24,156 nucleotides of DNA, taken from positions 1-24,156 of IMG/VR virus record IMGVR_UViG_3300031773_000040. The stretch is one strand, 5' to 3'. Positions 2,751 through 24,156 of this stretch are shown one piece after another. Source of the stretch: a virus. Each line of letters begins with the position of its first letter. The first letter of the stretch is position 1. Both the position numbers and the translations under genes were made by a program. The notes beneath the pieces were generated by a model. That model was not told where the DNA came from. It did not search any database and saw only the letters and a program-made list of their open reading frames with translations.

Positions 2751-4172
2751 TTAAGGCGTACCAAAAGGATTTCCTTCACTAAAATCCATTATAGCATCTG
2801 CTGCTATTTCTATTTCTTCATTAGCAGTAAATCCAGATTCATCTTGTGTAAATGAAGATAGTTTATAACTTGCACCAGATTCTAAACCAAGAATTGATTC
2901 TCCAGTATCAAAATTGCCAGTTAGATTTCCAATCTTCAATGTTCTATTGGTGGATGTCCAACTTACAACTCTTCCAGTAACACCAGAAGTCTGACCTGTT
3001 ACTACTTCATTAAACAGATATGTTCCAGATCCAGTTACACCAGGATTAGCCAATGCAATAGTTGGAGCTGCTGTATATCCAATTCCACCATTTGTAATGC
3101 GAATCTGACTAATTGTTCCAGCAGAACTAACAACAACAGTTGCAGCAGCAGATACTGTTGAAGAACCAGTAAAGGTCACTAGAGGTGCTGTCATAGTGGT
3201 ATATCCACTACCACCATTAGTTATAGTAACAATACCAATTACGCCATCACTAAGTCTTGCTGTAGCAGCAGCACCTGTACCACCAGTAGGAGGTGCAATG
3301 AATCTAACTTTAGGAGTCTCTGTATATCCTGCACCTGCATTTATTAATTCAACACTTTGTACAGATTTGTTGATAGGATCAACATTCTTTTCACATGCAA
3401 CAATTCCACCAATCATAGTTGCTGTAGCAATTCCTGTAATTCCTGACGATGGAGCAGAAGATATAGCAACTCTTGGAATAAGTGCATATCCACCACCACG
3501 ATTTGTTATAATAATTTCCGAAATTGCACCGTCAGAAACATATCCTACTGTTGCAGCAGCACCAGTACCAACACCAGCCATAGTTAATGTTTGAGTAATT
3601 CCTACTGTTGTTGCAATATCACCACTAGAATCACCAGTTAGAATATCATCAATTTCTGCGACATCGGTATCAATAACTTCGTTCTCATACCTAAAGAGTT
3701 CACACTTTAATGTATAAACATAAGTCTTTCTTAATTGATAGAATGGTTGTTCATGCTCAACAAATTTAATTTCAAATAACCTATCACCAAAAGGAAAATA
3801 AATTAGATCACCTTCTTTAGGTCTAGTTGCCAACTTAATATCTGATTGACCATCTAAAAGTGGTGTAATATAAGATTCATACCTTTCTTTTGAAATAGTT
3901 AGTGTTATCTCATTAAGTGCTTGAATTCCAAATTTTGATAGTATTGTAGTCTGATCTCCATATCCATCATAATTTTCCAAGTAAGCTTCTATTGGATATG
4001 CATCATCAAATGTAGATTGAATTACTTCTCTTATTACTGTTTTTTCTGTAATATATTTTCTTGGAAGATAGTGTACTTCAACACCATACATCCTCAACTG
4101 TTCGTTGATAAGATCCTGAACTAAATTTTGTTCTCCTTGTGACCCTTGCAGGAAAAATGAATTTAATGCCAT
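2751..4172 (-). CDS. gp14: Neck protein gp14-like with large repeat insert
   Basis: A 473-residue homolog of T4 gp14 (256 aa), the neck protein that with gp13 closes the DNA-filled head and provides the tail attachment site. The gp14 core is residues 1 to about 175: GVEVHYLPRKY at 30-40 (T4 GVECYYLPREY), ENYDGYGDQ at 66-74, SKFGIQALNEITLTI at 79-93 (T4 SKFGMQVQDEVTLSI) and EGDLIYFPFGDRLFEIKFVEHEQPFYQ near 120-146. Residues about 195-380 carry four repeats of a GAAAT...ITNGGxGYTxxP type, followed by a TGQTSG module at about 385-440 and a short acidic tail. This nearly doubles the protein relative to T4. The start is 4 bases after the gp13 stop and there is no separate promoter, so the two neck genes are probably co-transcribed and translationally coupled. 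Confidence 0.94.
   Translation of the reverse strand: MALNSFFLQGSQGEQNLVQDLINEQLRMYGVEVHYLPRKYITEKTVIREVIQSTFDDAYPIEAYLENYDGYGDQTTILSKFGIQALNEITLTISKERYESYITPLLDGQSDIKLATRPKEGDLIYFPFGDRLFEIKFVEHEQPFYQLRKTYVYTLKCELFRYENEVIDTDVAEIDDILTGDSSGDIATTVGITQTLTMAGVGTGAAATVGYVSDGAISEIIITNRGGGYALIPRVAISSAPSSGITGIATATMIGGIVACEKNVDPINKSVQSVELINAGAGYTETPKVRFIAPPTGGTGAAATARLSDGVIGIVTITNGGSGYTTMTAPLVTFTGSSTVSAAATVVVSSAGTISQIRITNGGIGYTAAPTIALANPGVTGSGTYLFNEVVTGQTSGVTGRVVSWTSTNRTLKIGNLTGNFDTGESILGLESGASYKLSSFTQDESGFTANEEIEIAADAIMDFSEGNPFGTP
3033..3590 (-). repeat. Four GGxGYT repeats inside gp14
   Basis: Repeat units begin near residues 204 (GAAATV), 247 (GIATAT), 300 (GAAATA) and 341 (AAATV). The signature ends are ITNRGGGYALIP, LINAGAGYTETP, ITNGGSGYTTMTAP and ITNGGIGYTAAP. 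The period varies from about 41 to 53 residues. The consensus is G-A-A-A-T-x(8-9)-G-x-I-x-x-I-x-I-T-N-G-G-x-G-Y-T-x-x-P. Confidence 0.85.
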
Positions 4173-12837: not shown

Positions 12838-14394
12838 TTAGAACTGCAATATAACCTTGACATCTTCTTTTTGATTAGCAGATCGGGTGACTGAGGGTCT
12901 GTTATCAACATAAATTATATTTCCAGATTCTTTTGTAACTTCAGGATTTGCAATTCCATCTACAAAAGACTGCCCAAGGTAATAGGTTCTATTATTTATT
13001 ACAGTTGAGACACCGGTAAAGGTGTTATCAATTGTTAATCCTTCAGCTACAGATCCTCCAACAATAGTGAGACTTCCTGTACCACTAGGAGATGCTGTAA
13101 ACTCATGTTGCTCAAATCCAAATTGTGGATTGGTAATTGCCACTCCAACAGTATTGAATCCCGACATTGATCGATCTTGCCAGACTTTTAAGACTCCTGT
13201 TGCTTGGTCATAACTAACAACTCTTGCAACTGCAGTAGATCCTGTTGCTACTGTTTGAGTAACAAATGAATCAGAAGCAAATGTTGCTGAACTATATCCA
13301 ATTCCAGTTAATCTAAGACCTTGAAGTGCGCTTGCTTTATCAAGATCTAATACTGCAGTTGAACCAAAGGCTCTAGGATTTTCGATAATACCAACTCTTG
13401 CAACTTGGTTTCCTGTAATAAAATCTGGATTTTGAATATCATTTTCATATCTAGAATACATGAGAACATTCTTTGAACCAAGTTCTCTGTAAATATCATA
13501 TCCATGCCCACCTTGGGGAGGAATAATAACATCAAAAGTTGGTCTAGTAATTCCAGTAGGAACTCCACCAGCAACTAAATCAACATTTCCATATGTATAT
13601 CCAGATCCTTGATTTGATACAACTACTGAATCTACTTGAGCATCATTATTAATAGAAACAGTACATTCTGCACCTGTTCCATCACCATTAATCGGAACCT
13701 TTGTATAAACTACACCTGCAGTTCCAACACTTGTTCCTCTATTTGTAATAACAACAGTTTTGAGTGAACCATCAATTGCATTATTACGAATAGCACTATA
13801 TGCATCCGCAGTTTCCCAATCAGAAGGAACCGGAATGTAATTAGTTGAATCAAATTTCACAATATCAGCAGGACTAATAGTATAAAGATACTTCCAAATA
13901 TATCCATCTCCACTAGATCCAGCTGCTCTTGGTTCTAAATCAATAAATGTTGGTTCATCAAGAGAAGGACTTCCATTAGGTGTTTCTGGTGTTGTTCCAT
14001 TCTGCAAACAAATATAAACTCTATAATCACTATTCATTACAAAGAATGATGCACCATATAGATTAGTTGCACCTGATACTGGAGCAGTATTGGAAGTACT
14101 ATAATCTGAGCGATACATATCATACGTATTACCAGATCTCCAAGCAATTTTCGGAATTACTAATTTAACATCTCCTGATGCAAGTTTTTTAACCGCAATT
14201 ATAGTTTCCCAATATTCGTTTTCTTCATCAAAACTATCCACAGGTGAAGGTGGATTATTATCCCAATCACTTTGAATATCAGAAGCATTTGGTAATCCAA
14301 TAAAAGAATAGTAAGAATTAATACTCGTAGTTATTCCTGCGACAAAATTCTTTGCGTTCAGTATTCTAATTTGGTCGGTTATAATTGCGGCCAT
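12838..14394 (-). CDS. gp8: Baseplate wedge protein gp8-like
   Basis: A 518-residue homolog of T4 gp8 (334 aa), the wedge protein that dimerises and binds gp7, gp10 and gp6 during baseplate assembly. The N-terminus ITDQIRILNAKNF...SYYSFIGLPN aligns with T4 VTSKFRTEKMLNFYNSIGSG. Further matches are VIPKIAWRSGNTYDMYR at 79-95 (T4 VIPRRDWGDTRYPDPYTFR), SGDGYIWKYLYTISPADI at 161-178 (T4 PGDGYVWEYLFEIPPDV), VARVGIIENP at 331-340 (T4 RQISIITNP) and the ending NIIYVDNRPSVTRSANQKED (T4 MIYMENRPPIIMAMDQTEE). The additional length comes from inserts at about 210-285 (two GGxGY-type repeats) and about 345-460 (a TGS-type module). It starts behind an AATAAATA motif without a clear Shine-Dalgarno, and is followed after 6 bases by the DUF4815 gene. 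Confidence 0.94.
   Translation of the reverse strand: MAAIITDQIRILNAKNFVAGITTSINSYYSFIGLPNASDIQSDWDNNPPSPVDSFDEENEYWETIIAVKKLASGDVKLVIPKIAWRSGNTYDMYRSDYSTSNTAPVSGATNLYGASFFVMNSDYRVYICLQNGTTPETPNGSPSLDEPTFIDLEPRAAGSSGDGYIWKYLYTISPADIVKFDSTNYIPVPSDWETADAYSAIRNNAIDGSLKTVVITNRGTSVGTAGVVYTKVPINGDGTGAECTVSINNDAQVDSVVVSNQGSGYTYGNVDLVAGGVPTGITRPTFDVIIPPQGGHGYDIYRELGSKNVLMYSRYENDIQNPDFITGNQVARVGIIENPRAFGSTAVLDLDKASALQGLRLTGIGYSSATFASDSFVTQTVATGSTAVARVVSYDQATGVLKVWQDRSMSGFNTVGVAITNPQFGFEQHEFTASPSGTGSLTIVGGSVAEGLTIDNTFTGVSTVINNRTYYLGQSFVDGIANPEVTKESGNIIYVDNRPSVTRSANQKEDVKVILQF
13565..13765 (-). repeat. Two GGxGY-type repeats in gp8
   Basis: Residues about 213-222 (TVVITNRGTS, degenerate) and 256-266 (SVVVSNQGSGY) show the same I-x-[NS]-x-G-x-G-Y pattern as gp14. 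They lie inside an insert absent from T4 gp8 and separate the conserved GDGYIWKYL block from the VARVGIIENP block. Confidence 0.6.
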
Positions 14395-14411
14395 TTTTAT
14401 AATTTTTTAGT

Positions 14412-14419
14412 TATTTATT
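14412..14419 (-). promoter_or_regulatory. Late-promoter-like AATAAATA
   Basis: Seven of eight positions match TATAAATA and the motif continues as AATAAATAACTA. It lies between the 369-residue gene and gp8 and ends 17 bases before the gp8 ATG. The leader downstream is A/T-only with no Shine-Dalgarno. Confidence 0.55.
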
Positions 14420-14424
14420 AAGGT

Positions 14425-15534
14425 TTATTGTGATGAAGGATTGATATATTTTATGATGACTATTCCTTTACCACCAGATCCAGAATTCTGATGAATTACC
14501 TGCTGACCGCCACCACCACCGCCAGTATAATCAACTGCAGGGGCTCCGTCCATGCTGGGGTTACCACCATTGCCACCACCACCAGTTCCACCAGCTCCAA
14601 ATTCAGGCATACCATATTCAGCACCGCCACCACCACCACCATATAAACCCCCAGGGTTTACTTCAGGAATCCAAGAAGGTCGAACTGGGGCAGGAATAGC
14701 AGGGGCAACATATAAATCACCAAAGTCATCAAAGGGATATCCAGGACCACCAACATTATCAGCACCTACAGCACCGGCACCACCGCCACCATGACAAACA
14801 CTGCCTCCAGGATCAGACTGAGTTCCTCTATAAATGTATTGAGAGTCATATCCTCTACCACCTGTCTTAGTATATCTTGCTGGATAAACAGGAGTTGTAA
14901 TATATTGTGAACCTCCTCCTGCAGAACCACCATGATTTCCAGCCATATACTCAACACCACTATAAGAACCACCACCGCCGCCACCCAGAGCTATAACTCC
15001 AGTAGATGCTAATCCAACATTAGATAAGTAATTTGTTACTATTCCTACAGTTTTATCATTAAGTCTACTGGATGTGTAATTAAGTGTAGGATAAAATCTA
15101 GAATCACCACCATTCACACCAGTATGATACTGAGTATCCGTACCATTTGCAAAAACACCTATTCCACCTTCACCAACGTCTACTTTATACTCATATCCAT
15201 TGGTTTGATCAAATGTAACTGCAGCACCATAAACAACTTCACCAGCACCACCACCTCCAGCATAATATGCACCACCACCAGAACCACCACCAGCAACAAC
15301 TAAAACAGTAAAAGTTTTTCCAGTACCTACTGCTGCAGGACCTAAACGAAAATGACCTGGTTCTGTAAATACATGATAATTAGTGACTTTTCCATCCTTA
15401 CCTGTGGTTGTAATTCCAGTACCACCACTTGCTAATATTGGAAGAACATTATCTGCTGTAGTACCAATATCAGAAGTATTATTAACACTTAAAAAACTAC
15501 TTAAATTTTTACCTAATGTGGATCTAATTCCCAT
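14425..15534 (-). CDS. Glycine-rich adhesin-like virion protein (369 aa)
   Basis: Residues 1-60 form a non-repetitive leader (MGIRSTLGKNLSSFLS...), possibly the attachment region. From VTNYHVFTEPGHF (residues 50-62) the protein follows the phage glycine-rich domain pattern: a strand ending in FTVLVVAGGGSGGG, then repeated GGGG tracts separated by short aromatic/Asn/Pro loops (for example ALGGGGGGSYSG, CHGGGGAGAVG, YGGGGGGAEYG, YTGGGGGGQQ), and a terminal GKGIVIIKY strand. The family is common in environmental phages. It recalls T-even gp38 adhesin tips, in which poly-glycine II helices present variable loops, but no sequence homology to gp38 is claimed. A tip adhesin that contacts the host surface is a reasonable inference. 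Its ATG overlaps the preceding stop (TAATG), with GAGAGGA upstream, so translation is probably coupled. The GGN codons make this gene more G+C-rich than its neighbours. Confidence 0.8.
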   Translation of the reverse strand: MGIRSTLGKNLSSFLSVNNTSDIGTTADNVLPILASGGTGITTTGKDGKVTNYHVFTEPGHFRLGPAAVGTGKTFTVLVVAGGGSGGGAYYAGGGGAGEVVYGAAVTFDQTNGYEYKVDVGEGGIGVFANGTDTQYHTGVNGGDSRFYPTLNYTSSRLNDKTVGIVTNYLSNVGLASTGVIALGGGGGGSYSGVEYMAGNHGGSAGGGSQYITTPVYPARYTKTGGRGYDSQYIYRGTQSDPGGSVCHGGGGAGAVGADNVGGPGYPFDDFGDLYVAPAIPAPVRPSWIPEVNPGGLYGGGGGGAEYGMPEFGAGGTGGGGNGGNPSMDGAPAVDYTGGGGGGQQVIHQNSGSGGKGIVIIKYINPSSQ

Positions 15535-15917
15535 TAAACGGTCCTCTCAATATCCCCAAGAACCATAATATTTGCAGTTGACGCAATTCCAACAACAGCA
15601 CTTAATGTATCATGATGTGTAAAAACCAATGGATAATTAAGTTCTAAAATTTGAGTCTCATTAGCAGAAAGTGTTTGATGATAAAACTGATCTGCTTCAG
15701 CTGGAGGATTTGATGCGGGACTAGTAGCCGCTTCATAATACAAAGAAATCGTAGAAGCAAAAGAAGTTGGATTATGCATCACCACACTTTTAACATAACA
15801 GGTAGAAGCAATTCCAACAGGAGTTGGAGATACTCCACCAGTAACAAGACCAACAGCCTGATTAGCTACTCCTGTGATTTTAATGATATCTTGTAATCTA
15901 GTCTTCTGTAATGCCAT
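15534..15917 (-). CDS. Small conserved virion protein (127 aa)
   Basis: A complete 127-residue protein without signal peptide or membrane helix. It opens with LQDIIKITGVANQAVGLVTG, then has a beta-rich body with YVKSVVMHNPTSF (41-53), a TISLYYEA strand (56-63) and a LELNYPLVFTHHDTLSAVVG segment (91-110). The VxLxNP...I.LYY.......N...........L.PNET..LELxYPLVL pattern is one I recall from small phage structural proteins, but I know no function. It starts behind a GATAAATAACTA motif without a Shine-Dalgarno, and its stop shares one base with the next ATG, pairing it with the glycine-rich adhesin. A connector or chaperone for that adhesin is plausible by context only. Confidence 0.75.
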   Translation of the reverse strand: MALQKTRLQDIIKITGVANQAVGLVTGGVSPTPVGIASTCYVKSVVMHNPTSFASTISLYYEAATSPASNPPAEADQFYHQTLSANETQILELNYPLVFTHHDTLSAVVGIASTANIMVLGDIERTV

Positions 15918-15935
15918 TAGTTTATAGTTTTTAGT

Positions 15936-15943
15936 TATTTATC
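15936..15943 (-). promoter_or_regulatory. Late-promoter-like GATAAATA
   Basis: Seven of eight positions match TATAAATA and the motif continues as GATAAATAACTA. It overlaps the TGA stop of the fiber gene and ends 18 bases before the ATG of the 127-residue gene. Confidence 0.55.
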
Positions 15944-16859
15944 ACATGCTGAACATACCAGCAGAGAAGGCATCTAAACCTGCCTCTATACCAGTAAGTC
16001 CAGATCCACTACCAGTAAAACTAGTAGCAGTTACTACACCAGCAACATTTGCATTATCAGCAGTTACAATACCAGTAATATTTACACCAGAAACAGTAGT
16101 TTCTAATTTCTTGCCATGATCATAAAATATGGATACAGATCCACCATCAACAGCTAAAAGGTAATCTTCACTACCATTTTGAGTTTGTAATCTTATATCA
16201 TTACCAACAATTCTAAATTCACCTGTTTCATTTTTTATAGTGCTATTACCACCAGTATGGTATATCAACAAATCTCCACCAGATGCACTACCAAATACAC
16301 ATTTGGCAGAATCATCAAACTTAAATTTACTTGTTGCTTGATCCCATAGAACATTATATGAAGCACCAGGGAATTGTACGTCCTGATTAAATGTAGTAAC
16401 ACCAGATACGCTAAAATTTGTTGCTGTTGCAATACCAAGAGTAGAAACACCTGATACATTCAGATTATTAATGGTACCCATTCCGGTAACATTAATATAT
16501 TCAAATTGATTAGGCATTGCTGCTGTTGCAGCTTCAATGGTTGCTGTTGTAGTGGCATCTATGGCAGTTACACCACGAAGATCCACAACAGTAGCAATAC
16601 CACTTATACTAATATTTGTAGCACCTATTCCACCTCTTACATCTAATAAATGAGCAGGAATAGTGCTACCAATTCCAACAAATGATTCTCCTATAGTAAT
16701 AGCACATGTACTGCCTGTACCAATTCTTAAAGTAGTACCATCACCTATAGCAGCATAAACTTCATCAAAGTTGGTGTTAACTTTTCCGCCACCAACTCGC
16801 AATCCATCGCCTGTTCCATCATTAGGAGCGGATCCTGTATTTATTCCTAACTTTGCCAT
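15942..16859 (-). CDS. Short tail-fiber-like protein (305 aa)
   Basis: The N-terminus LGINTGSAPNDGTGDGLRVG, followed by KVNTNFDEVYAAIGDGTTL (to about residue 44), is a segment typical of T4-like marine phage fibers and probably the baseplate-binding end. Residues about 55-160 contain short beta repeats with SGI/SGV, ATxxF and TTT steps (NISISGIATVV, NVSGVSTLGIATATNFSVSGVTTF), typical of trimeric beta-helical fibers. Residues about 170-265 hold a block (YNVLWDQATSKFKFDDSA, DLLIYHTGGNSTI, DYLLAVDGGSVSIFYDHGKK) found repeatedly in long fibers of this phage group. The protein ends with a TATSFTGSGSGLTGI step and a short tail, without an intramolecular chaperone domain. At 305 residues it is short for a host-recognition fiber, so it may be a fiber base. 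It starts behind a TCTAAATAACTA motif. Confidence 0.82.
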   Translation of the reverse strand: MAKLGINTGSAPNDGTGDGLRVGGGKVNTNFDEVYAAIGDGTTLRIGTGSTCAITIGESFVGIGSTIPAHLLDVRGGIGATNISISGIATVVDLRGVTAIDATTTATIEAATAAMPNQFEYINVTGMGTINNLNVSGVSTLGIATATNFSVSGVTTFNQDVQFPGASYNVLWDQATSKFKFDDSAKCVFGSASGGDLLIYHTGGNSTIKNETGEFRIVGNDIRLQTQNGSEDYLLAVDGGSVSIFYDHGKKLETTVSGVNITGIVTADNANVAGVVTATSFTGSGSGLTGIEAGLDAFSAGMFSM

Positions 16860-16882
16860 TGGTTAATAGACCTTTTACTAGT

Positions 16883-16890
16883 TATTTAGA
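16883..16890 (-). promoter_or_regulatory. Late-promoter-like TCTAAATA
   Basis: Seven of eight positions match TATAAATA and the motif continues as TCTAAATAACTA. It follows the stop of the giant gene at 16894 and ends 23 bases before the fiber ATG. An AAAGG stretch lies between them. Confidence 0.5.
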
Positions 16891-16893
16891 TTT

Positions 16894-19800
16894 TTAAGCG
16901 AGATAGTCTCTATATTTCAAAGGTACATTTCTTCTGACATACGCAGAAGTAGAAATTCCAGTTACTCCATTTTGATTATAGAATGGAAACTCTTGTGTTG
17001 CTGTTCTTGCATCACAATCAATTTTACCCCAACTATAAACTCCATAATAATTACGGAAGACAAAATTATCAAAAGAAGTGGTTGTAGAATCAAAAGTTTG
17101 AACCATACTATCAAAAGTATCAGTTTCACCAAAAACGTATCCATTATAAGTGCTTACACCAACAGTAATTTTTCTAATGAACACATCTCCAACACCATAA
17201 ACAAATTCTTTAACTGTTTCAGCTTTTAATGCCTTATAAACATTATCAAGAGAAGTTGTTCCAACACCAACAACAGTTCCACTAGCATCCAAAGAAGTTA
17301 CTGGATTACCAATATTAGATTCTCTATAGACAAAATAATCATTTGTGCTTATACCACTTATAGTGACTGCAGTTCCAGTAATAACTGTATCTCTCATAAT
17401 AGAATTTTCTGGAATCAATAGTTCAAATATAAGTGCTGTAGATGCAATCCCAGTTACGGCAGTTGTTCCAACACCAACAATCAATCCAAAATCACCACTA
17501 TATTCCACTCCAGAACTAATCTTCTCATCCAAAACAGGAGGTGGTGTCATTAAGACTTGTGGTACAGAAGTATATCCAGTTCCAGGTCCAGTCATTGTAA
17601 TACCCGTAACTATACCAGCATTACTGATATATGCTCTAGCAGTTGCTCTATTACTAGTTCCAACACCAACTGGATTTCCAAGAATTACAACAGGATTAGT
17701 AGAATAACCAACTCCACCATCAGTAAGTGTAACTGCAGAAATTGTATTACCAGCAGACACAGTAGCCGTAGCAGAAGCAGCAACTCTACTGTCCTGAGAA
17801 ACAAGAACTATCTCTTTTTGGAATGATAGTGAAAGATCATTTTCATTTTGAGCATTAAAGAGTGGTCTTACACTTTCAACATAGATGGTAGTAGATCCAA
17901 CACCAACAGTTTGAATAACATTAGTATTTGGATAGATAGATGCCTCATATAAAGCACGATCTTTAGCAACTCTCTTACCATTAAGAATCATATCTTCAGT
18001 CTGTCTGCACCAATTCATTGGACGCTTCAGTTGAATATCATTAATATTTCCAGGACCAAAATATGGGTTAGTTGATACTACATCAGTAGAATCTATACTC
18101 ATCACAATTCTTGGATCTTCCTGGAAATTCTCATCTTGACCTTGTAAAGGATCATTATTAAGTTGTAAAGTATCACCCTCTTTTACCGTTTCAAGAATAT
18201 CAACATCAACAACATCAAGACCACCGCTTCCTTTATAAAATACAATACTTACTTTATCACCAGACTTAGGAGCCTCTCCAAAAATAATTGTACTACCACC
18301 TGGGAATATATAACCCTCACCAGGAACCTGTAGAATATTATTATAGAATACAAGTAATACATCTTGAATATTAATATTTGATCCTTTGGATGCTTTAATG
18401 GAAGTAACTACACTATTAACTCTTAATTGGAAATCTGTAGTTGTTCCATCAAATTGATCACTAATATCATCAAGAGGTTGAAGTTGACCAATAGCCCATC
18501 CAGCAAATTTATCAGTAAATGTCTTTTCAAGAGTTAAAGTAAATCTCTCCAACTTCGATGCTGTTGCATCAGTTGGAATTCCAGTAATACCACCTGTAGG
18601 AACAGTAAGATTATCATTTGGTTTGTAACCATATCCAGTATTTACAAGAGTGAAATCAGAAACCTTCGTAGTTGCACTAACAAAAATATCAACCTTACCT
18701 TCAGTTCCAGTTCCTACTGGAGTCGATACGCCATCTGTTTGATAAATCAAAGGAACACCAGAATAAGAGAGAGGACTATCAACTACCGCTTCATATGTTT
18801 TGGTTGTAGAGAATCCAGTGTCTGTATTGGTTATAGAACATGCTGTTGAAACAAAACCATCTTTAATAGTAGTGAATCCAATATGTGTGATAACGTTATC
18901 ATTAGATGGATCAGTTCCTGTTACAATACCAATATTTGCAACACCAACTTGTGGAGCAATAATCTTAATCAAGACAGCAGTACCAGCAGCAATTTCATAG
19001 TCACTTGCACTTGAAACTCCAATTGTTACTGATGTTGTACCTATAGAAGTAATATTCGTTGGTTTGATATATGTACCAATTCCAATTGTACAAGTACTAC
19101 CATAACCAAGTAATTGAAGTTTTCCAAATACACTATTCTTGTTATCAAGAGTAATAATATTTGATGAAGCAGGAATTGCTGTAGTAACGTCTGTTAGAAT
19201 TTCATAGTTGTAATCTGCTCTATAACCGGACCCAGTGCTGCCAATTGTGATTGCAGATATAGTTCCACCTGAACCAACGGTTATCGTTGCTCCAGCACCT
19301 ATGAGAGGTTGATAAGCGCTTCCTTCAGAAGATCCTACCGTAACGATTACACCACCAATTGGAAGGTTTGATTTGTTAACATCAGCACCAAGTATACTAG
19401 CACCATAAGAATCACTAAAGATTGCTGAAGTAATTCCAGCTTGTTCATTCATTGTATAATCATTTGCAAGTCCTGGAATCTGGAAGATATCATTAACCAA
19501 TATAACAGCATTTTCATTCTCAATTCCAGTAATATTCGCAGAATCTTGCTTTAAAGTAAATGTAGTCTCAAGACCATTAAAGTCATCTGAAATATCATCC
19601 AATAGATAGTTCTTACTATATGCCTCATTAGAACCACCAGGAGTTCCAGATCTCATAAAGGATCTTCCTTGGAAAACAGAACTGGTAGTAATTCCAACCC
19701 AATCTCTATCATATGGTGCATTTGTAGTAGTAGAAAGTGGAATACCACCATAAGGTGCTTCAACAAAGTTAAGGAAATTACCAACAATATTATAATTTCC

Positions 19801-22800
19801 AGAAATTTTCTGAACTTGAGCACCAGTATCATGACCAACAGCTACAGTTCCCATCCAAGGTCTTTGAACACGTAATGCATTTGTATAAGTTCCTACTCCA
19901 ACTGCCTGAACCTTCATAACTTCATCACCAATTTTAACCAAATCATTACCATAAATTGATGTAATTCCCACCAAATGTATAATATCTTCAGTATCTAAAG
20001 CTGGTAGTGTCAAAGAAGTTGTTACAGATGTTCCAACAATAGGAGATTGGAGATAGTTATCCAATGCAACTATACATTTTTCATTCTGATTTTTTGCAGT
20101 AAACGTATGAGAAGTACCAATACCAACATGAGAAATATCAAGCACAGTTGGAATAACTTTTAAAGCATTTTCCGCAGTTGATGCAAGTTTAATCTTATTA
20201 GAATCAACCTTAATAGCAAAAACAGAACTTGGTAATCTATCAGTAGATCCAATACTAGGTACTGTAGTAGTTACTATTCCAATATTTTGTGTTGTACCTG
20301 TTCCTGGATTGGAATATACCAATTCTTCACCAGTAACAAAGAAATGATTGGGAATAGTAATAGCATTTTCAGTGAAATTATTAGAAATTGCATATTCAGG
20401 GAAAAATCTTCCTCTCTGTGTAGAATAATTCCTTTCAACTTCAGATAAATCCAATCCTTTATCTTTATATACTCTAACTACACCAATATCCATTGTTCCG
20501 GCAGTTCCAATTTCAGACTTACCAATTAATACTCTTGATTGTGTTGTTTCAATAGAACCGGCATAAGTTTGAGTGGTTGAACCTGCTTCTCCATTAAGAT
20601 AACTATAAACAGTTGTTCCAATTCTACTAACTGCAATATACTGCCATTCATTTAATGTTGCTTTTGCAGGAAAATCTCCTGAAGTATCCAAAGCACCATT
20701 AACTGCTTTAAATACGAGGGTTCCTTGACCACTATCAGTATATCCAGAATCAATATAAAGTGTGAATGTATTATCAGGAACACTAATACCCCATCCAGCA
20801 GCAATTATGTGTTGATTTGCTCCACCACCAGGCGCAAATGATGTTGGTCTAACCCAAGCTTCAATGGTAAAATCTCCAGTAAAATCAAAATCAGACCCAT
20901 CATCAGGAACTTCACCATGTGCACTGTCAAAATCAAATCCTAATTCTTTACCACCTTCTCCATATAAAATATCTGCTGTAACAATATTAGTTAATGTTGC
21001 GTCATTACCTTCACTACTAGAATCAATCCAAGTAGTAGTACCACTAATATTTCTTCCATCCAAATAGAGTGATAAGTCATCTAAAATTACATTCTCACCA
21101 TCTGTACCAACAATAGTTCCATCTGATCCGTCAAAATATCTTTCAAAAATCTGATATGTATCATGTGTTAAGTTAAATGCCCTCTTAACATCAACTTCAG
21201 TTCCTTTATATGTACCGTACTGTGAATCCATCCAGGCATTAGTAAATTCAAGCGTAATTGGATTATCAGCTGCTCCAATATCATCTTCAAAACGCATATA
21301 ATTGTAGAATGTTCTAACTTCTACATCTACACTAGCATTTGGAGTAAACTTCAATGCTGTTAAACCAGTAGTAGCGTTATAAGTAGCACCAAAGGTTCCA
21401 ACACCAACAAAACTACCAGTAGCACCAACTCTAAGATCTCCCCATTCAGTCATGTGAACATCATTACCAGTATCACATAACATTATTTCAGAAATTACTG
21501 TAACGTTATTAGTTGTATCAGTAGCTTGAGCAATAATATAAGCACCATCATAACGATCTGGATATTCTCCTACTGAATGTGCTGTTGGAGAACCAGATGC
21601 TGGAATATTCCAATACTCACTACCGACTAATGCATGATTAAAGGCAAAGGAACCAATTCCAGCAGTATTACCCATACCAACTGTTATTGCATTAATAGAA
21701 GCAGCAGTAGAAACGTTAGGAATAAAATCAATTACAACATTACTGCCTGAAATATAAGGATGATATGTTCCTAAACCAGATGCAGCATCATCAAGTTCAT
21801 TTAAGTTAGTTAATCTACCATATTCTTGCAAATCTACTGTGGTTCCATCATGTACAAAAGTCAGTTCATTAAATTCATAATCTCCAGAAGTTGTCTTAAA
21901 TTCAAATAGAACTTTTCCTGAAGTATAGGTATTAGCAATACTTACAAAACGAGTGGTTGAACCAGTTCCAACTCCTGTAGCCACTGCAGTACTTGCTGTA
22001 GCTATCCTAACTCCACCAAACTGAGAAGATCCTGTTCCTACTACCAAATCATTAATATTATATGATAGAGTAAAAACATTATAGTCATTTACAGAATACT
22101 TGTTTGGAAGGAATTGAATAACACCATCAAGTCCATCAAGACCATAATCAAAAGATCCTAAATCAGATACAGTATCAAGTCTAGCATATTGGTTCATATA
22201 ACCAAATCCAGAATCATCATGTAAAAGAGTCAAAATCATCATTTGACGCTCATATGTATATCTACGATCTTGAACATAAGTTATGAACTTATGAGCATTT
22301 GCATCAAGGTTTGTAAAACGTGCAATATTACTATATCTTGTTGCTCTTGGATTACTATTAAATTCTGAACTAAAATCATCAATAGAAAGAACTCTATTGC
22401 CAATAGATTCTGAGTAATCTGTTAATATTTGACTTTGAAGTACAACTTGATCAGAAAGTGTATCATTCTTATTATTTTCTGTAGCTAAATCAAAATTATA
22501 AACACAATTAGTATCAACAACATCATAAAAATCAGTAACAAGATCAACCGTACTTAAAGTTGACCCCACTCCAACAACTGCATCATTAATAGGTACTGAT
22601 TCAACTTGTAAATTAGAAAACTTCTTAAACCCTGCTGTATGGTTTAATGCACTTACTACATCATCCCATTTTGCCATATCAATAGTAGATTTCAATGCAT
22701 AGGAGAATTTCTGATAATAATCACCATCTTGAATAACCTGACTATTTAAATTTAAAAATCCTGTTCTTTCTTCCCAACCAGATTCAACTTTTGATTTAGC

Positions 22801-24156
22801 TTCAAGATTATAAGTGGCAGTAAAATTCTTAGTTGCAGATATTCTTCCTCTAGTTTTTGAGGAAGTTCCTTCAATTACATGACCAACAACAAAATCTTTA
22901 TTTGTTTGAATTTTGAGATATCCAGTCTCACTATCCCATCTTTCAACAGTTCCTGTAACAGTACTATCATCTAAAGAGATAATTCCTTCACCTTTTAAGA
23001 AATGTGTAGTTGTAAGGGTAATATCAAATATTGGGAAATCTTTTTTAGGAATAACTCTACCAGAAGATTTTTGTGGATTAAAGTTTCCGGGAATTTCACC
23101 TGCTTCCAGGAAATTACTCATACTAAAGGTTACAAAACCAATTCCACCAAGATTTTCATCAATACCAGATACTGTAAACAGTTGATAATTATAAAGATCA
23201 GTATTATATCCTTTTCCAGTATTGACAGTCACAACATCACCATTTGCAGCTGTTGATGCAATACCAACACTAACATTCTCAATCATAATTTCATCACCAA
23301 TAGAGAATGGGAATGAATTTACAGTACTAAATCCAGTAGCTAAAGTAATGGATGCGTCCTGAGTAGTAGTATTGAATGTAATTGTTTGAATTCCTACACC
23401 ATTAGAGTTATTAATTGGAAGTAATCTTGGTTCAACATCATTAATTCCATAAGTATTTTTAAGAACTTTAAGATCTCTGGCACCCTTTTCAAAAAGCAAA
23501 TCAACTTCAATCATTTGCTCACCACTTTGACCATCAAAAACAATGACTTTAGGTGTAGGACCATATCCTCTACCAGCAGAAGTAACTCCGATAGAATCAA
23601 AAATTGCAAGATTATCAATTTTAACTATTTCAGGAAGTTTTGCAGTAGGTCTTAAAGTCTTATCAGAAGGATAATCAAAACCAACATCTTTCAATTTAGT
23701 TCTCTTAATAATACCGATCTCATTACTTACAACATTAAGAACGGCATTTGAACCTATTCCAATCGTAGAATCATTTACTGTAGTCCTTTTGAAAATGCCA
23801 TTAATTTTGGGTAATTTGTAATAATTATTACCTCTGTTATAAACTTTCAAATCAACAATGGATCCAATTCCAGAAGAAGAATCTGTAGAATACTTAATAT
23901 TTGCATTACTTTGAGTATAGGACAAACTTTCAGGAACTTCTGAAATAAAATATGTAAATGTATTTGTTGCACCAATTGAAACAGTCTGCTTTCCACTGTA
24001 TACACTATCTACAATTTCTATCTCATTATTTGCCTTTACTTCATCATCAATACTAATTTGAAGCTTTTCAATTGGAAGTTGATCAGTTGAAATTGGAACC
24101 AGATTATAATAAAGTTGTTTTGGAAGAGTAGAATCAACAACTAACGTAACTTGACC
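16894..24156 (-). CDS. Giant modular virion protein, gp7 position (5' end outside window)
   Basis: The frame is open from the right window edge, giving 2420 residues with the true N-terminus missing. An apparent start at 23925 is a TTG inside the frame; the 77 codons before it read through without a stop (GQVTLVVDSTLPKQ...). Modules in order, as DNA positions: GGxGY-type repeats near 23790-23850, 23535-23595 and 23180-23240; two related beta domains at 21670-21930 and 21285-21555; a LamG-like lectin domain at 20400-20960; a gp15-tail-like module at 19800-20035; two LDDISDxF modules at 19410-19615 and 18230-18490; and more GGxGY repeats near 19200-19260, 18600-18660, 17670-17740 and 17540-17605. 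The C-terminus (YGVYSWGKIDCDAR..) is distinct. It lies before gp8 with fiber and adhesin genes between, so by T4 order it occupies the place of gene 7; no direct gp7 homology is claimed. It is probably a baseplate/fiber scaffold with carbohydrate-binding capacity (inference). Confidence 0.85.
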   Translation of the reverse strand, partial: GQVTLVVDSTLPKQLYYNLVPISTDQLPIEKLQISIDDEVKANNEIEIVDSVYSGKQTVSIGATNTFTYFISEVPESLSYTQSNANIKYSTDSSSGIGSIVDLKVYNRGNNYYKLPKINGIFKRTTVNDSTIGIGSNAVLNVVSNEIGIIKRTKLKDVGFDYPSDKTLRPTAKLPEIVKIDNLAIFDSIGVTSAGRGYGPTPKVIVFDGQSGEQMIEVDLLFEKGARDLKVLKNTYGINDVEPRLLPINNSNGVGIQTITFNTTTQDASITLATGFSTVNSFPFSIGDEIMIENVSVGIASTAANGDVVTVNTGKGYNTDLYNYQLFTVSGIDENLGGIGFVTFSMSNFLEAGEIPGNFNPQKSSGRVIPKKDFPIFDITLTTTHFLKGEGIISLDDSTVTGTVERWDSETGYLKIQTNKDFVVGHVIEGTSSKTRGRISATKNFTATYNLEAKSKVESGWEERTGFLNLNSQVIQDGDYYQKFSYALKSTIDMAKWDDVVSALNHTAGFKKFSNLQVESVPINDAVVGVGSTLSTVDLVTDFYDVVDTNCVYNFDLATENNKNDTLSDQVVLQSQILTDYSESIGNRVLSIDDFSSEFNSNPRATRYSNIARFTNLDANAHKFITYVQDRRYTYERQMMILTLLHDDSGFGYMNQYARLDTVSDLGSFDYGLDGLDGVIQFLPNKYSVNDYNVFTLSYNINDLVVGTGSSQFGGVRIATASTAVATGVGTGSTTRFVSIANTYTSGKVLFEFKTTSGDYEFNELTFVHDGTTVDLQEYGRLTNLNELDDAASGLGTYHPYISGSNVVIDFIPNVSTAASINAITVGMGNTAGIGSFAFNHALVGSEYWNIPASGSPTAHSVGEYPDRYDGAYIIAQATDTTNNVTVISEIMLCDTGNDVHMTEWGDLRVGATGSFVGVGTFGATYNATTGLTALKFTPNASVDVEVRTFYNYMRFEDDIGAADNPITLEFTNAWMDSQYGTYKGTEVDVKRAFNLTHDTYQIFERYFDGSDGTIVGTDGENVILDDLSLYLDGRNISGTTTWIDSSSEGNDATLTNIVTADILYGEGGKELGFDFDSAHGEVPDDGSDFDFTGDFTIEAWVRPTSFAPGGGANQHIIAAGWGISVPDNTFTLYIDSGYTDSGQGTLVFKAVNGALDTSGDFPAKATLNEWQYIAVSRIGTTVYSYLNGEAGSTTQTYAGSIETTQSRVLIGKSEIGTAGTMDIGVVRVYKDKGLDLSEVERNYSTQRGRFFPEYAISNNFTENAITIPNHFFVTGEELVYSNPGTGTTQNIGIVTTTVPSIGSTDRLPSSVFAIKVDSNKIKLASTAENALKVIPTVLDISHVGIGTSHTFTAKNQNEKCIVALDNYLQSPIVGTSVTTSLTLPALDTEDIIHLVGITSIYGNDLVKIGDEVMKVQAVGVGTYTNALRVQRPWMGTVAVGHDTGAQVQKISGNYNIVGNFLNFVEAPYGGIPLSTTTNAPYDRDWVGITTSSVFQGRSFMRSGTPGGSNEAYSKNYLLDDISDDFNGLETTFTLKQDSANITGIENENAVILVNDIFQIPGLANDYTMNEQAGITSAIFSDSYGASILGADVNKSNLPIGGVIVTVGSSEGSAYQPLIGAGATITVGSGGTISAITIGSTGSGYRADYNYEILTDVTTAIPASSNIITLDNKNSVFGKLQLLGYGSTCTIGIGTYIKPTNITSIGTTSVTIGVSSASDYEIAAGTAVLIKIIAPQVGVANIGIVTGTDPSNDNVITHIGFTTIKDGFVSTACSITNTDTGFSTTKTYEAVVDSPLSYSGVPLIYQTDGVSTPVGTGTEGKVDIFVSATTKVSDFTLVNTGYGYKPNDNLTVPTGGITGIPTDATASKLERFTLTLEKTFTDKFAGWAIGQLQPLDDISDQFDGTTTDFQLRVNSVVTSIKASKGSNINIQDVLLVFYNNILQVPGEGYIFPGGSTIIFGEAPKSGDKVSIVFYKGSGGLDVVDVDILETVKEGDTLQLNNDPLQGQDENFQEDPRIVMSIDSTDVVSTNPYFGPGNINDIQLKRPMNWCRQTEDMILNGKRVAKDRALYEASIYPNTNVIQTVGVGSTTIYVESVRPLFNAQNENDLSLSFQKEIVLVSQDSRVAASATATVSAGNTISAVTLTDGGVGYSTNPVVILGNPVGVGTSNRATARAYISNAGIVTGITMTGPGTGYTSVPQVLMTPPPVLDEKISSGVEYSGDFGLIVGVGTTAVTGIASTALIFELLIPENSIMRDTVITGTAVTISGISTNDYFVYRESNIGNPVTSLDASGTVVGVGTTSLDNVYKALKAETVKEFVYGVGDVFIRKITVGVSTYNGYVFGETDTFDSMVQTFDSTTTSFDNFVFRNYYGVYSWGKIDCDARTATQEFPFYNQNGVTGISTSAYVRRNVPLKYRDYLA
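17540..17740 (-). repeat. Tandem GGxGY repeats near the C-terminus of the giant protein
   Basis: Two adjacent units, LTDGGVGYSTNPVVILGNP (about 17675-17740) and MTGPGTGYTSVPQVLMTPPP (about 17540-17605), match the gp14 repeats most closely, including the GYT/S..P ending and an upstream Ala-rich ASATATVS or NRATARAYI strand. Confidence 0.75.
18230..18490 (-). repeat. LDDISDxF module, copy 2
   Basis: The segment starts LDDISDQFDGTTTDFQL, then has ILVFYNNILQVPG-like strands (VLLVFYNNILQVPGEGYIF) and ends VSIVFYKGSGG. It aligns with the segment at 19410-19615. This arrangement (a DDIS.qFnG..T.FtL start, an INgv.Q.PG middle and an I.F..aP..G ending) is known from many marine phage fibers and baseplate proteins. 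Confidence 0.7.
19410..19615 (-). repeat. LDDISDxF module, copy 1
   Basis: The segment starts LLDDISDDFNGLETTFTLKQD, has the strand AVILVNDIFQIPG and a Y-T-M near the end, and aligns with copy 2 at 18230-18490. It is slightly shorter, with a less clear final strand. Confidence 0.7.
19800..20035 (-). other. gp15-tail-like module inside the giant protein
   Basis: LTLPALDTEDIIHLVGITSI, then LVKIGDEVMKVQAVGVGT and LRVQRPWMGT...GHDTGAQVQKI reproduce the order of elements in the accessory C-terminal domain of gp15 (IDATEISIKV, LYVDLDGEEVWVKSVGTDS, VVERGQDGT...SHLRGSSI). Confidence 0.55.
20400..20960 (-). other. LamG / concanavalin-like lectin domain in the giant protein
   Basis: About 185 residues with the order expected of a Laminin-G-3 jelly roll: LGFDFDSAHGEVPDDGSDFD, then GDFTIEAWVRPTSF, a HIIAAGWG strand, FTLYIDSG, LNEWQYIAVSRIGTTVYSYL with NGEAG, RVLIGKSE and a closing MDIGVVRVYKDKGLDLSEVE. 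The EAWV, W.+iAv.r.g....+yvNG and G.+d.vRvy.+.L...Ei steps are the recognised family features. Such domains bind carbohydrates; in a virion this suggests contact with the host surface or virion decoration. Confidence 0.85.
21285..21930 (-). repeat. Two related beta domains in tandem in the giant protein
   Basis: Unit 1 (about 21670-21930): SGKVLFEFKTTSGDYEFNEL, then HDGTTVDLQEYGRL, a GTYHPYIS strand and VVIDFIPNVSTAASINAI. Unit 2 (about 21285-21555): DGAYIIAQATDTTNNVTVIS, then CDTGNDVHMTEWGDL, a GTFGATYN strand and LKFTPNASVDVEVRTF. The shared order is polymer strand, [HC]-D-[GT]-x(1-2)-V-x-[LM]-x-E-[YW]-G-[RD]-L, GT[YF], and F-[IT]-P-N-[VA]-S. This points to an internal duplication of one beta sandwich. 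Confidence 0.7.

Follow-up and report, generated by a model that had tools for sequence, protein, structure and literature searches.

The locus examined here raises the question of what function a glycine-rich protein serves when its gene lies among the baseplate genes of a virus. The window, i.e. the whole stretch of 24,156 nucleotides that was analysed (IMG/VR virus record IMGVR_UViG_3300031773_000040, positions 1 to 24,156), is a fragment of a T4-like marine cyanophage in which genes of the gp8, gp13, gp14 and gp15 types were recognised, as was that of a terminase small subunit. The closest named records are Synechococcus and Prochlorococcus phages, e.g. S-SM2. The glycine-rich protein (14425..15534, minus strand, 369 aa) is probably the distal receptor-binding tip of a tail fibre, composed of a sandwich and a glycine bundle and exchanged by recombination. 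An earlier note, made from the sequence alone, had placed it beside a 127-residue partner and a fibre gene; these neighbours are the open reading frames (ORFs) 15534..15917 and 15942..16859, both on the minus strand.

Glycine accounts for 94 of the 369 residues (25%) of the tip protein. Runs of four or more glycines are located at residues 93-96, 184-189, 249-252, 299-304, 318-321 and 338-343. Residue shuffles (20,000) yielded a mean of 1.10 such runs and reached six or more with P = 0.00035; no shuffle contained three runs of six glycines, as the protein does. A GIVIIKY strand is present near the C-terminus, so that the GGGG tracts and closing strand described in the earlier note were confirmed. 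Residues 73-363 affiliate with the Gly_rich_2 family (PF21722; 37.6 bits against a curated Pfam cut-off of 24.3, and 38.8 bits for the gene in a six-frame search), which is matched by all 15 members of the alignment of tip relatives. At a threshold of E 0.01, the only other family match in Pfam and PHROGs was phrog_2295; the T-even gp38 sequence family was not matched. A tblastn search of the protein against the phage collection gave no match, probably because the low-complexity filter of BLAST masks the protein, and a profile of the family found relatives in four of the 11 phage records searched (Bellamy, S-SCSM1, S-SSM7 and P-SSM2). In S-SCSM1 (L123, 1328-5365) a protein of 1345 residues, labelled outer capsid or virion protein, carries Gly_rich_2 at its end, and the domain therefore also occurs fused to other virion proteins. 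On the plus strand, a proline-rich ORF of 80 residues (14552..14794) is an antisense shadow of the glycine tracts and no gene.

Evidence for an exchangeable tip comes from two IMG/VR relatives, L001 and L002, which carry the same cassette at the same place as the window. Upstream of the glycine-rich gene, the window and L002 differ at one position in 4,950 bp, and the fibre gene and the gene of the 127-residue protein are 100% identical in DNA. Within the glycine-rich gene, 145 differences were counted over the 1,059 bp covered by L002 (86.3% identity in DNA, 81.0% in amino acids). Only two amino acid differences fall in residues 1-88; residues 89-353 are divergent. The variable part of the window's tip, residues 89-352 (14479..15270, minus strand), consists of loops that differ among near-identical viruses and glycine tracts that are kept. 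Residues of the GG tracts changed in 2 of 51 cases against 63 of 214 for the others (Fisher P 4e-5), and the comparison with L001, which spans the whole gene and runs on into gp8 (96.2% identical), gave 1/53 against 70/228 (P 9e-7). The same pattern of variable loops, kept glycine core and conserved flanks was found in a second, separate lineage. Between L020 and L023 the DNA identity is 90.7% for the fibre, 95.5% for the 127-residue protein gene and 86.0% for gp8, and 70.2% for the glycine-rich gene; 3 of the first 80 tip residues differ, and 3/55 residues changed in GG tracts against 117/225 in the remainder (P 2e-11). L021 and L022 were left out of the counts, since in the genes in common they duplicate L020 and L023.

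Synonymous divergence (dS) rises from about zero upstream to 0.23 in the tip gene, which argues for replacement of the gene body by recombination. For codons 89-353 of the window and L002, 39 synonymous and 98 non-synonymous differences were counted, with a ratio of non-synonymous to synonymous divergence (dN/dS) of 0.82; in codons 161-250, with few synonymous changes, the ratio is 1.54. At the level of sequence, the tip variants are thus imported alleles whose loops are swapped wholesale among otherwise near-identical viruses, and in two pairs of relatives the tip gene body has been replaced while shaft and adaptor were retained. The expectation of the earlier note that the loops would vary rapidly, to be examined by comparing loops and core in metagenomic relatives, was correct in that the loops vary and the core is kept; the variation arrives as whole alleles, not as point changes. 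Recombination inside the tip gene is not claimed. Among the alleles of the window, L001 and L002, all informative sites formed 93 runs against 129 in shuffles, but third positions gave no signal (49 runs, P 0.58) and a breakpoint test was weak (P 0.017), so that the clustering of sites may reflect only multi-base changes within codons. In a laboratory evolution study of cyanophage S-TIM4, host-adaptation mutations were not concentrated in hypervariable regions, which calls for caution, and its authors note that allelic exchange could not be studied (PMC6224464).

A structure of the tip was predicted with AlphaFold2 from 15 sequences (the window and IMG/VR), with a mean predicted local distance difference test (pLDDT) of 67.5 and a predicted template modelling score of 0.74. 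The prediction, suggested as a check in the earlier note, shows no enzyme fold; a tumour necrosis factor (TNF)-like or beta-sandwich base with glycine tracts is predicted. Foldseek matched the model to the tail tip of Bxb1 (E 3.4e-5) and the fibre of Pam3 (E 2.7e-3). In VIA-align, the best match was Bxb1 chain 9d93_Qb (Z 16.0; root-mean-square deviation (rmsd) 3.3 over 204 residues; 27% identity), followed by Pam3 7yfw_a (Z 14.5, rmsd 3.0 over 192). The glycine-rich domains of ALK and LTK were clearly weaker (Z 7.5-8.1, rmsd 3.1-4.0 over 143-154; ALK 7mzy: Z 8.1, rmsd 3.1 over 145), and the next unrelated structure reached Z 2.1. S16 gp38 (6F45) was not among the Foldseek and VIA-align matches listed, although a fold like that of gp38 may still be present. 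A poly-glycine bundle, as suggested by these matches to solved structures, agrees with the poly-glycine sandwich of the earlier note, but the closest solved structures are those of the Bxb1 tail tip and Pam3 gp24 rather than gp38.

The fibre, the ~130-residue protein and the tip are found together as a unit in other loci as well. A search of IMG/VR with the ~130-residue protein returned 39 loci, representing 35 distinct cassettes after four copies were dropped. The shaft of the window (15942..16859, minus strand, 305 aa) has an N-terminus similar to T4 gp9/10 (PF07880) and ends in the peptide FSAGMFSM (15945..15968, minus strand), a tail of the [LM]F type. In all 33 readable cases the product of the gene just before the ~130-residue protein gene has [LM]F at its end, followed by one or two residues, although the N-termini of these shafts are quite different from one another. 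The tail was absent from all 20 genes that precede gp8 without a gene for the ~130-residue protein, ten of which are fibres that start like that of the window. On the other side, a related N-terminal peptide begins the following gene in all 30 readable cassettes; since tip starts were chosen by a preference for M[GAPS] ORFs (in the final count of 35 cassettes also VG), independent evidence comes only from the [KR][STAG] part of the motif. In the window this putative docking peptide comprises the N-terminal ~35 residues of the tip (MGIRSTLGKN..., 15430..15534, minus strand); residues 1-30 have a pLDDT below 50, and no helix was called there in the monomer model. Tips were glycine-rich in 25 of the 30 cassettes. 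The other five comprise L069 with a Laminin_G_3 domain, L047 with DUF7483, L061 and L075 without a Pfam match, and L063, which is truncated after 82 residues. The concanavalin A-like Laminin_G_3 domain and DUF7483 thus replace the glycine-rich domain within the same type of cassette.

The protein between shaft and tip (15534..15917, minus strand, 127 aa) belongs to phrog_20100, a family without functional annotation. Its model is an all-beta sandwich (pLDDT 65.8, residues 1-37 unreliable) and resembles PDB structures only at the general level of a jelly roll, the best match (Z 8.3, the turret of a Haloferax tailed virus) being tied with unrelated proteins; the corresponding sequence profile found nothing significant in PDB. 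In BFVD, 82 predicted viral proteins match the model at E <= 0.001, and most of the 50 matches listed are phage proteins of ~100-130 residues, among them proteins that carry the label virion structural protein in S-TIM5 and MaMV-DC and virion protein in S-SCSM1. The region 181-196 kb of S-SCSM1, examined for a virion-labelled adaptor, did not settle the matter. Across 27 cassettes, excluding those with a missing end or a duplicate, and with shared ancestry and linkage not removed, distances of the ~130-residue protein correlated with those of the shaft C-terminus (Mantel r 0.65) more than with those of the shaft N-terminus (0.40), and with those of the tip N-terminus (0.59) more than with those of the tip body (0.25).

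The invariable gene order and the conserved terminal peptides point to a joint between shaft and tip, in which the [LM]F tail of the shaft and the peptide that begins the tip would be linked by the 127-residue beta-sandwich protein. The shaft would be anchored at the baseplate through its gp9/10-like N-terminus, as its family suggests. At the distal end, the C-terminal ~330 residues of the tip are predicted to form a TNF-like beta-sandwich with the glycine tracts projecting from it and packing together as a poly-glycine bundle. The intervening loops would be the exposed, variable surface that binds the host, since they vary here and a glycine-rich adhesin of haloarchaeal viruses tracks host range; most likely, the tip grips the host cell. 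New tips are brought in by recombination, which exchanges the tip gene body and leaves shaft and adaptor in place, as two pairs of relatives show at the level of sequence.

Whether the joint has a wider meaning may be judged from Synechococcus phage Bellamy, in which the cassette occurs twice (genes 31-33 and 36-38) within a fibre cluster (genes 28-54). The matched sets of this cluster (L120, Bellamy 39000-57500) are of four kinds and include other types of small protein, or none, beside the phrog_20100 type. Shafts ending in ...DITASLF or ELDAALF are paired with phrog_20100-type proteins, a shaft ending in ...ALSMVFG with a 126-residue protein of another type, and one ending in ...DTWLYGGG with a diverged protein of 120 residues. 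Shafts with the tails ...SINP/SVGV have no small protein, and their tips start with M(S/G)(V/I)FNEFFKKEKP. Marine T4-like phages could plausibly possess a docking code, a proposal that we rate slightly short of probable, in which each adaptor of ~120-136 residues pairs one class of shaft tail with one class of tip start, so that shafts and heads (poly-glycine, lectin-like or DUF7483) may be freely combined and exchanged by recombination.

The main rival to a joint concerns the 127-residue protein, which might instead be a chaperone for fibre folding like Pam3 gp25 or Mu Tfa, with the tip bound directly to the shaft as gp38 is to gp37. A small gene adjoins the tip here too, but the model of its product is all beta and lacks the C-terminal helical trimer domain of Pam3 gp25, several of its BFVD matches carry the structural labels mentioned above, and the protein tracks the shaft C-terminus and the tip N-terminus more closely than their far ends. 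We therefore consider a chaperone possible but rather unlikely. Less likely still is that the glycine-rich protein is a decorative or structural protein of the baseplate or neck with no receptor function, its variation being neutral divergence after import from another lineage. Such an origin would agree with a dS that is high as well as dN, and with the occurrence of Gly_rich_2 at the end of the S-SCSM1 protein labelled outer capsid protein. Against it stand the confinement of the variation, in each of two independent lineages, to the body of one gene with conserved neighbours, the concanavalin A-like domain that the same module carries in L069, and the alternative fibres that occupy the slot in relatives. 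Diversification of the loops by a diversity-generating retroelement would produce localised hypervariation in a tip protein, yet it is highly improbable here: no excess at adenines is seen among the 145 differences between the window and L002, which involve every substitution type and all three codon positions (50/44/51); 39 of those in codons 89-353 are synonymous; and no reverse transcriptase domain was found in a scan that covered ten window proteins but neither the two largest ORFs nor one of 76 residues. A dS that climbs from about zero upstream to 0.23 in this gene is also not what one would expect from such an element or from a burst of selected point mutations.

Several observations nonetheless weigh against a receptor-binding tip exchanged by recombination, or narrow what may be said of it. 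L002 stops within the glycine-rich gene, so that the comparison does not reach the right-hand border of the exchange. Given the dS of the tip gene, the loop differences are explained by import together with a constrained core rather than by demonstrated positive selection, and residues 141-180 vary little (4/40 in both comparisons, with L002 and with L001), so variability does not extend to all non-glycine stretches of the tip. Confidence in the tip model is medium, 88 of the 369 residues, including the first 30, falling below pLDDT 50. Sequence profiles provided no solved relative of the tip in PDB; profile A2 found none, A4 gave composition-like matches (best E 0.019) with no phage tip or ALK protein among them, and a search with the single sequence gave composition-like matches at most. 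Lastly, the adaptor role of the 127-residue protein is putative and derives from gene order and terminal peptides.

The cassette of the window occupies a slot between a very large baseplate gene in the gp7 position (16894..24156, minus strand), which runs off the window, and the gene of the baseplate wedge protein gp8 (12838..14394, minus strand). Its recurrence as a unit supports the possible host-recognition cassette, between two baseplate blocks, that the earlier note had suspected. The stop codon of the 127-residue protein gene overlaps the start codon of the tip gene (TAATG). In GenBank, 13 of the 474 records that hold gp8 were examined: nine have nothing between the gp7-position gene and gp8, three have one fibre and one combines a fibre with an oxygenase, while the three-gene cassette is absent there from all 13. 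In the IMG/VR loci the slot is either empty or occupied by this cassette, by one fibre or tandem fibres, or by a fibre of ~866 residues. A plastic region dividing the baseplate module has been described for some cyanomyophages (PMC7029224), and the slot is therefore a known kind of variable site. L027, L029 and L034 have two adjoining fibre genes before gp8, of 121 and 305 residues, with near-identical N-termini; the relative L030 has only the gene of 305 residues, and the start of the short copy in L034 resembles that of the window's own fibre. The sequence TAAATAACTA occurs in exact form on the minus strand at 14408-14417, 15932-15941 and 16879-16888 and nowhere else in the window; these copies lie immediately upstream of gp8, the 127-residue protein gene and the fibre, whereas the glycine-rich gene has none in front of it. 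It is possibly a late promoter element; with one mismatch allowed, its count was no more than expected by chance. In the gp14-like protein (2751-4172), matches are not limited to the neck-protein core: residues ~246-377 align with stretches of further families of baseplates and fibres, phrog_708, 701 and 5342 among them.

As far as our searches show, three aspects are new: the recurrent unit of shaft, ~130-residue protein and tip with conserved terminal peptides, of which no earlier description was found in open-licence PubMed Central (PMC) papers; its position in the gp7-gp8 slot; and a pair of near-identical viruses whose shared stretch differs almost only in the tip. Most fibre genes of cyanophages are unnamed, and the protein that touches the host is seldom known from sequence. 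As a marker standing reliably between shaft and tip, phrog_20100 would make the adhesive tip directly readable in metagenomic data. Viruses that are near-identical but have different tips form natural pairs, in which host range could be tied to one gene. Should the terminal peptides form a docking code, the natural exchange of receptor-binding tips would become directly testable.

Glycine-rich fibre tips are already known, also in a cyanophage. In T-even phages the gp38 gene follows gp37 directly, whereas in the window the 127-residue protein gene lies between shaft and tip. Mycobacteriophage Bxb1 is a siphophage of actinobacteria with another tail architecture. Its tail tip (PDB 9d93, chains Qa/Qb) provides the best fold match, and domains of its gp33 and gp29 are likened to the glycine-rich polyproline II (PPII) bundle of Salmonella phage S16 in PMC13243192, where both S16 gp38 and ALK are described as such bundles. 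Like the tip studied here, S16 gp38 (PDB 6F45) is a separate tip protein with a poly-glycine bundle; it differs in a beta-helix middle domain and a three-layer lattice. ALK and LTK are animal receptor kinases whose glycine-rich domains share only a weaker resemblance of fold. Haloarchaeal hafunaviruses, which infect archaea and are likened here by description, possess a glycine-rich tail fibre adhesin that lies in a hypervariable region, has a small gene behind it and tracks host range (PMC8651126). Bellamy has the same shaft, ~130-residue protein and Gly_rich_2 cassette; in contrast to the window, it carries it in a distant fibre cluster and not between gp7 and gp8, and some of its tips have two tandem Gly_rich_2 domains. 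From the structural matches to Bxb1 and Pam3, the closest precedent is Pam3 gp24 (PDB 7ypx, 7yfw) and not T-even gp38. According to the Pam3 study (PMC9608196), the fibre tip has a TNF-like base, glycine motifs packed in parallel into a lattice and a diversity that rises toward the distal end, and the combination of a TNF-like and a glycine-rich domain, with conserved glycine motifs and variable distal ends, resembles what is predicted and observed for the tip of the window. The Pam3 fibre is a single protein whose N-terminus is a helical bundle; its chaperone, gp25, is of the Tfa type. No Tfa-type gene stands next to the tip in the window, where the neighbours encode the all-beta 127-residue protein and gp8, and where shaft, ~130-residue protein and tip are separate genes.
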